Of a DNA stretch of 39,779 nucleotides, positions 35,694 through 36,118 are shown one piece after another. The stretch spans positions 1 to 39,779 of the forward strand of contig JAJRVJ010000023.1 in NCBI GenBank assembly GCA_024277435.1, read 5' to 3'. This DNA is from Patescibacteria group bacterium (GTDB lineage Bacteria > Patescibacteriota > Patescibacteriia > UBA9570). The translations under genes were made by a program, and so were the position numbers. The notes beneath the pieces are model-generated. The model had not been told where the DNA came from. It searched no databases and was given only the letters and a program-made list of their open reading frames with translations. Within the stretch, counting starts at the first letter, position 1; each line of letters begins with the position of its first letter.

Positions 35694-35765
35694 TGCCGAG
35701 GGCGAGGATCGAACTCGCGACACAAGGATTTTCAGTCCTCTGCTCTACCACTGAGCTACCTCGGC
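35694..35765 (-). tRNA. tRNA-Phe (anticodon GAA)
   Basis: Acceptor GCCGAGG/CCTCGGC, anticodon loop CTGAAAA giving GAA, T loop TTCGATC. Its 5' end is 5 nt after the stop codon of the small membrane protein gene. Confidence 0.95.
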
Positions 35766-35770
35766 ATGTG

Positions 35771-36043
35771 TTAGTAAACTAACGAGGCTCTTAATGCGTA
35801 ATTGGCTATTCCCCAAGCTACTAGCACTAGCACTAGTAGTGCAATACTTGCTCCAAAGAGGATGCCAAATATAGCAGTTTTCTTAAAGGATCTTTTAACA
35901 CCCTCTGGAATTTTCTTACCTCCCTCTACAATTGCCATAATAACAGTGAGAATAGGGAAGAGAATAATTCCTACTACACTAATCAATGAGACTGTTCCTA
36001 GTGCCCAATTTACGATTTGTGATGCAAGTAATTCTGGTGCCAT
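35771..36043 (-). CDS. Small two-helix membrane protein wedged between tRNA-Ile and tRNA-Phe
   Basis: 90 residues. Hydrophobic helices lie at about 13-38 (NWALGTVSLISVVGIILFPI) and 57-84 (AIFGILFGASIALLVLVLVA), with a basic loop between them (EGGKKIPEGVKRSFKK). The pattern resembles TrbC/VirB2-like or other small CPR membrane proteins, but no family is certain. The ATG at 36043 begins one base after the discriminator base (36045) of tRNA-Ile on the same strand. The stop is 5 nt before tRNA-Phe. RNase Z/RNase P cutting would release a nearly leaderless mRNA. Confidence 0.65.
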   Translation of the reverse strand: MAPELLASQIVNWALGTVSLISVVGIILFPILTVIMAIVEGGKKIPEGVKRSFKKTAIFGILFGASIALLVLVLVAWGIANYALRASLVY

Positions 36044-36044
36044 G

Positions 36045-36118
36045 TGGGTATGCCTGGATTTGAACCAGGGACCTCAGTCTTATCAGGACTGCGCTCTAAC
36101 CAACTGAGCTACACACCC
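36045..36118 (-). tRNA. tRNA-Ile (anticodon GAU)
   Basis: Acceptor GGGTGTG/CATACCC with one G-T pair, anticodon loop CTGATAA giving GAU, T loop TTCAAAT. CCA is not encoded. It is the first element of a tRNA-protein-tRNA transcript. Confidence 0.95.

Follow-up and report, generated by a model that had tools for sequence, protein, structure and literature searches.

Organization of the tRNA-Ile/tRNA-Phe locus

The window, which is the whole stretch of 39,779 nucleotides analysed here, carries a small protein gene between two tRNA genes on the minus strand. Read on that strand, tRNA-Ile is followed by a single C, the ATG of a 90-codon open reading frame (ORF), its stop codon, five nucleotides (CACAT) and tRNA-Phe. 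The first-pass annotation had described this order with the same spacings, and it was confirmed by Rfam, ARAGORN, ORF calling and the sequence itself. The end of tRNA-Ile given by ARAGORN comprises the discriminator plus one base, and the Rfam boundary agrees with the earlier annotation. The features of the locus are as follows.

36166..36171, minus: -35-like element TTGCAT of the tRNA-Ile promoter (TTGCAT-16-TATACT, score 8.8)
36144..36149, minus: -10 box TATACT of the tRNA-Ile promoter (motif scoring)
36045..36118, minus: tRNA-Ile(GAT) (Rfam RF00005, 72.8 bits; ARAGORN)
36044, minus: C at tRNA position 74, the sole base separating the discriminator from the ATG (read from the sequence)
36041..36046, minus: CACATG direct repeat, copy 1, containing the ORF start codon (read from the sequence)
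35771..36043, minus: 90-codon ORF with two predicted helices, weakly similar to VirB2/TrbC pilins, presumed leaderless mRNA (ORF, codon statistics, homologue in genome G001, hhalign, two-helix model)
36043-36041 and 35773-35771, minus: start codon ATG and stop codon TAA of the ORF (sequence)
35765..35770, minus: CACATG direct repeat, copy 2, made up of the 5-nt spacer and the first base of tRNA-Phe (read from the sequence)
35694..35765, minus: tRNA-Phe(GAA) (Rfam, 73.3 bits; ARAGORN), with no -10 box within 60 nt upstream
35425..35498, minus: tRNA-Pro(TGG) with its own promoter (Rfam, ARAGORN, promoter scoring)
35396..35411, minus: intrinsic terminator 3' of tRNA-Pro (terminator prediction)

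The spacer between tRNA-Phe and tRNA-Pro is 195 nt long. A partial copy of the tRNA-Phe 3' end (GATCCTCGCCCTCG) was noticed in it at positions 35612-35586 and is possibly the scar of an old integration. A looser arrangement of the same kind, which had been pointed out at tRNA-Leu (9524-9607), is real and ordinary, with an ORF starting 25 nt past the tRNA.

Coding signal and identity of the ORF

A run of 90 stop-free codons has a chance of about 0.003 at the local composition. The codon score of the ORF was found to be 0.075 per codon, whereas 89-codon windows of real genes average 0.158 (sd 0.089). It is exceeded by 85% of these windows yet lies inside their range, and scores as high occur in 0.1% of antisense windows and in none with a shifted frame. 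The GC content at the three codon positions is 0.51/0.38/0.27 in the ORF and 0.52/0.37/0.31 in the genome. The synonymous codon score is weak, with 93% of gene windows being higher.

No close homologues were found in the contigs of GTDB r220, and in a profile search of 286 genomes of the class only the match in G001, a genome of the same family, was clear while the others were weak. This homologue is distant (E 7.6e-7, 28% identity) and has a loop in common with the ORF, A-I-x-E-G...P-x-G-x-x-R-S-x-K/R-K-T. A Pfam search returned no family above threshold and no VirB2/TrbC match at E<=10, and identification through Pfam was dropped. The ORF is weakly similar to VirB2/TrbC-like pilins, one of which is encoded elsewhere in the host genome; the hhalign probability against VirB2-like pilins is 86% and the aligned residues show 32-38% identity. 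Two hydrophobic helices are shared with the VirB2/TrbC-like type IV secretion pilins of Patescibacteria, and the AlphaFold model of the ORF is a two-helix hairpin (pLDDT 73). Unlike these pilins, the ORF has a different loop, no Pfam match and no N-terminal signal peptide, such that it starts at the mature part of the pilin alignment. A safe description of the predicted product is a small two-pass membrane protein with no role assigned.

Insertion between adjacent tRNAs

Named relatives sharing the matching 16S stretch are mostly Ca. Kerfeldbacteria, which we take to be members of class ABY1. In G003, a genome of the same family, the same neighbours (a fibronectin-like protein and a glycosyltransferase) accompany tRNA-Ile, 6 nt, tRNA-Phe and tRNA-Pro with no ORF, and in G001 the two tRNAs are 7 nt apart, again with no ORF between them. 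They are also adjacent without the ORF in G008, which belongs to another family, and G002 carries a different insert with a GIY-YIG ORF at this point. The G001 homologue was located between an EamA-type transporter and trmD (names assigned by inspection), with no tRNA nearby. Judged from these genomes, the ORF is a lineage-specific insertion that separates two otherwise neighbouring tRNAs. The other reading considered, an ORF conserved within the tRNA operon, is ruled out by synteny in G001, G003, G008 and G002.

The first-pass annotation had proposed conservation of the tRNA-Ile/ORF/tRNA-Phe order as a check, with relatives that keep both tRNAs without the ORF counting against it. Genomes of the same family were found to be exactly of this kind, and therefore the trio is not a conserved one. 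This removes the claim of a conserved element and not the claim on how the mRNA end forms here. The CACATG copies on both flanks of the ORF are insertion-like, and CAT is frequent next to tRNAs here; the repeats are suggestive only. No duplicated tRNA-Ile halves, of the kind seen around the GIY-YIG genes described below, were found around the window ORF beyond the general tRNA similarity to tRNA-Pro. The corresponding locus of G003 has a serine-recombinase-like integrase gene (L131, 3608-5296) next to tRNA-Pro, and the tRNA-Ile/Phe/Pro cluster has the look of an integration hot spot.

The ORF might be a recently inserted passenger which is transcribed because of its position and is little translated or useless, the RNA between the tRNAs being degraded as spacer. 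Such a history agrees with the lineage-specific insertion, the flanking CACATG repeats, a synonymous codon score at the low end of the gene windows and the lack of a Pfam family. Furthermore, the tRNA-Ile/Phe/Pro unit takes other inserts (the GIY-YIG ORF in G002 and the tRNA-Phe 3' remnant in the window). However, the frame is intact across 90 codons with a coding-like composition, the relative in G001 retains the P.G..RS..KT loop motif and clear household genes hold the same position in related genomes, and we consider a useless passenger to be unlikely.

Other features of the window

The frame of the endonuclease IV gene (nfo, 7344-8198) is broken by an in-frame TAA at 7998-8000 and similarity resumes beyond it, which may reflect a pseudogene, recoding or an assembly error. 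In G001, nfo and an inositol-phosphatase-like gene are separated by a metallo-beta-lactamase gene that is missing from the window. The run of ORFs at 21827-29919 resembles a near-complete histidine biosynthesis operon (translations by inspection), which is unusual for Patescibacteria. ORFs with GC-rich codon use were noticed at 78-710, 10088-11198 and 16590-18010, the rest of the window being AT-rich, and these are possible recent transfers.

Promoters and a leaderless signature at gene starts

The tRNA-Ile promoter contains TATACT, the commonest -10 hexamer in the host genome, and a near-identical region is found upstream of tRNA-Pro. Between tRNA-Ile and tRNA-Phe, motif scoring gave no site better than 5.9, compared with a mean of 6.4 in random genic windows, 58% of which match that score. 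No TAnnnT was observed at -18 to -10 before the ATG of the ORF, and tRNA-Phe lacks a -10 box, as do second members of tRNA tandems. The simplest reading is that tRNA-Ile, the ORF and tRNA-Phe would be co-transcribed.

Gene starts in the host genome were surveyed over 440 kb (369 ORFs of at least 100 aa) and 400 kb (333 ORFs), using a simple longest-ORF caller. In the larger sample, TAnnnT peaks exactly at -12 from the ATG (44 against a background of about 13) and TATAnT likewise (16 against about 2), with little enrichment of Shine-Dalgarno-like words. In the smaller one, a -10 box is present at -14 to -11 in 12.3% of cases versus 3.4%, and Shine-Dalgarno sequences before starts are not enriched (5.7% versus 6.1%). 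The anti-Shine-Dalgarno of the 16S rRNA is intact. A similar signature, from few genes, was observed in the AT-rich relatives G003 and G185, whereas G145 (55% GC) uses Shine-Dalgarno sequences (23% versus 8%). This genome-wide -10 box without a Shine-Dalgarno signal indicates that leaderless mRNAs are in use, and thus a leaderless mRNA should be translatable in this host.

Another explanation is that ribosomes recognize the start codon without a Shine-Dalgarno sequence and translate the ORF before the tRNA-Ile/ORF/tRNA-Phe precursor is cut, or on some longer transcript, which would make tRNA processing irrelevant to its expression. Many within-operon genes of the host also lack both the -10 box and the Shine-Dalgarno, which is unused genome-wide, so internal initiation without a Shine-Dalgarno must occur. 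Against this, the start codon would abut the folded acceptor stem in an uncut precursor, and tRNA maturation, which is required for tRNA-Ile to function, strips this context anyway. Translation from the precursor is in our view rather improbable.

A promoter inside the tRNA gene could also drive a separate transcript of the ORF. In several tRNA-gene pairs of the host, where the gene begins 10-36 nt past the tRNA, the spacer contains a -10 box at the distance typical of leaderless starts (e.g. G000 C19:9656-9585). One such gene, 27 nt after tRNA-Arg(tct), has TATACT in the spacer at -12. These boxes place a leaderless promoter directly behind certain tRNAs. An internal promoter is nevertheless very improbable at the present locus, for TAnnnT is absent at -18 to -10 from the window ORF and from all sixteen Pfam-recognised genes that lie at the same spacing in relatives, and the sequence before these ATGs is fixed by the acceptor and T arm of the tRNA.

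tRNA 3' ends and processing enzymes

C74 was found to be encoded after all 37 host tRNAs (in the window, for example, at 9523, 11341, 13292, 30229, 35424, 35693 and 36044). The discriminators are followed by CA in 26 cases, CC in 10 and CT in one, and the full CCA is encoded in 8/37. CAT follows 14 of the 37; as every tRNA is followed by C, a C-ATG after a tRNA needs merely one extra G. The spacing of 1 nt between tRNA and ATG is, on its own, less surprising than it looks. Samples from nine further genomes of the order likewise have C74 at nearly every tRNA (53/56 in one set and most of those in another), and CCA is mostly not encoded. This suggests that C74 would be retained in the mature tRNA, with the CCA-adding enzyme, which is present in the host genome, supplying CA. 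If so, the mRNA would start exactly at AUG and not at C-AUG.

The first-pass annotation had RNase Z cutting after the discriminator of tRNA-Ile and leaving 5'-C-AUG. The cut-off of the canonical RNase Z model (TIGR02651) was reached in none of ten genomes of the order, compared with matches in 14/14 control genomes, nine of them over the cut-off. The host (G000) has just two distant matches, an RNase J on contig C16 and a 448-aa beta-CASP protein on contig C6. RNase P RNA is present and standard, so that there is a known enzyme for the 3' cut of the mRNA and none for the 5' cut. The RNase Z step at tRNA-Ile is therefore doubtful, and with C74 encoded throughout, the cut may fall after C74 to give 5'-AUG. 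Trimming of tRNA 3' ends solely by exonucleases would not release an mRNA with an intact 5' end.

Recurrence of genes abutting tRNAs in the class

Across 381 genomes of the class, we looked for C-ATG at the correct distance from tRNA T-loops. True tRNAs followed by C-ATG were observed 62 times, 23 of them opening ORFs of at least 60 aa and 16 beginning Pfam-recognised genes. The latter comprise five GIY-YIG nucleases, a polysaccharide flippase, DUF4012, an Imm5-like protein, an S4/pseudouridine synthase and PdxS, together with HD domain, cation efflux, RNHCP, VTT/DedA, thioredoxin-reductase-like and methyltransferase proteins. The profile matches often begin in the first residues, so the C-ATG is a real start. 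As a control, an ATG overlapping an encoded CCA (CCATG) was found in 45 cases; five of these open ORFs of 60 aa or longer and none opens a Pfam gene. The difference in Pfam genes (16/62 versus 0/45) is significant (Fisher p=7e-5). Neither a -10 box nor a Shine-Dalgarno was found before the ATG in any of the 16 genes.

Small GIY-YIG genes lie exactly one base after a tRNA at L221, L233, L242, L244 and L246, and at L052 of G002. Three of these cases follow tRNA-Ile GAT, and the one in G002 is in the tRNA-Ile/Phe spacer. At L242, the gene is enclosed by two tRNAs, tRNA-Ser(tga) and tRNA-Ser(gct), and the gaps are 1 and 5 nt as in the window. Several GIY-YIG genes are flanked on one or both sides by partial copies of their tRNA; the household genes at tRNA ends are mostly without such copies. 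The small GIY-YIG genes at tRNAs are probably small mobile elements inserting at tRNA genes.

Genes were also observed slightly further from the tRNA. Among the matches listed, Pfam-matched genes begin 2-5 nt after the tRNA in 12/29 cases where CCA is not encoded versus 1/53 where it is; these loci were partly chosen (CCATG-rich genomes first, then the remaining CCA-less tRNAs), which makes comparison of rates between spacings rough. The genes include UvrB, ZIP, MGMT, an acyltransferase and recG, and a membrane protein whose Zn_dep_PLPC match stays below threshold lies 2 nt after a tRNA in three genomes. Across three families, recG follows tRNA-Arg(gcg) in five genomes at 2, 3, 3, 3 and 4 nt (L373, L306, L345, L377 and L371, respectively), which means that the abutment itself is conserved in this case. 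A privileged spacing of 1 nt is unsupported, as genes also occur at 2-5 nt and C-ATG is favoured by the C-A-T bias of the trailers. The defining feature is abutment with no room for a promoter or ribosome-binding site, and not the single nucleotide; with spacings of 2-5 nt in the wider pattern, an exact cut is not strictly required.

Proposed mechanism

In the mechanism we propose, the tRNA-Ile promoter would drive a single RNA that spans tRNA-Ile, tRNA-Phe and the small ORF between them. The 3' maturation enzyme acting on tRNA-Ile would cut after the discriminator or C74 and leave an mRNA with its first codon at, or one base from, the 5' end, and RNase P cutting at tRNA-Phe would set the 3' end 5 nt past the stop codon. 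Ribosomes would translate the released mRNA without a leader, which is apparently the usual mode in this genome. The ORF would have been inserted recently between the two adjacent tRNAs, and other genes in the class would have reached the same solution.

We consider tRNA processing of a co-transcript to be the best explanation for the ends of the ORF mRNA, and give it somewhat better than an even chance. The idea of a leaderless mRNA made by tRNA processing, taken from the first-pass annotation, gains from an ORF that lies in a tRNA unit without a detectable promoter of its own, from the leaderless signature of the genome and from the recurrence of the layout in the class; it loses conservation of the trio and the RNase Z step. 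The lack of a Pfam family and a sole clear homologue that lies away from any tRNA also count against it. The locus may be described as a young example of a recurrent fusion between protein genes and tRNA 3' ends in a genome with a leaderless signature. As a broader and more tentative proposal, to which we give a little less than an even chance, this lineage of Patescibacteria would regularly make mRNAs by tRNA punctuation, with genes fused to tRNAs that encode only C74, mRNAs starting at or a few nucleotides from the AUG, some of them bounded by tRNAs on both sides, and a non-canonical 3' endonuclease.

If true, tRNA punctuation of the mitochondrial style would exist in bacteria too, having arisen in strongly reduced genomes that translate leaderless mRNAs, and would offer a clean system in which a single enzyme activity, tRNA 3' maturation, directly controls the expression of defined protein genes. 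It also raises the question of what enzyme matures the tRNA 3' ends in bacteria where a canonical RNase Z is missing and C74 alone is encoded. Software for gene calling may overlook such genes if it masks tRNAs or demands space after them. A literature search for leaderless mRNAs made by tRNA processing in Patescibacteria found no paper, an absence which proves little.

Comparison with known systems

In animal mitochondria, RNase P and ELAC2/RNase Z excise tRNAs from the transcript and thereby leave leaderless mRNAs, which is the tRNA punctuation model. As would be the case at the window locus, both mRNA ends are set by tRNA processing and the start codon is at or next to the 5' end with no Shine-Dalgarno. 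A protein gene flanked by tRNAs at gaps of a few nucleotides, as punctuation implies, was observed in the window (1 and 5 nt) and at L242, and motif scoring detected no promoter between tRNA and gene. The present case differs in that the genome is bacterial with few such genes rather than being organized this way throughout, C74 is encoded, and no canonical RNase Z match over the cut-off was found in ten genomes of the order. Passages of PMC10941002 and PMC5203842 use tRNA punctuation as a term.

Two bacterial systems are also comparable to the window locus. The thrU-tyrU-glyT-thrT-tufB operon of E. coli yields a tRNA-mRNA cotranscript whose RNAs are separated by RNase P and 3' processing, and here too the protein gene is downstream in a tRNA transcription unit. 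However, tufB has a leader with a Shine-Dalgarno whereas the window ORF has neither leader nor ribosome-binding site. In mycobacteria and actinobacteria, mRNAs that lack a leader have a -10 box 6-7 nt before the ATG. Leaderless transcription in these bacteria is treated in PMC4633059, with Streptomyces data in PMC4681348. The leaderless transcripts resemble the presumed mRNA of the window in having the start codon at or near the 5' end, but their 5' end comes from the start of transcription, whereas that of the window ORF would come from RNA cutting.
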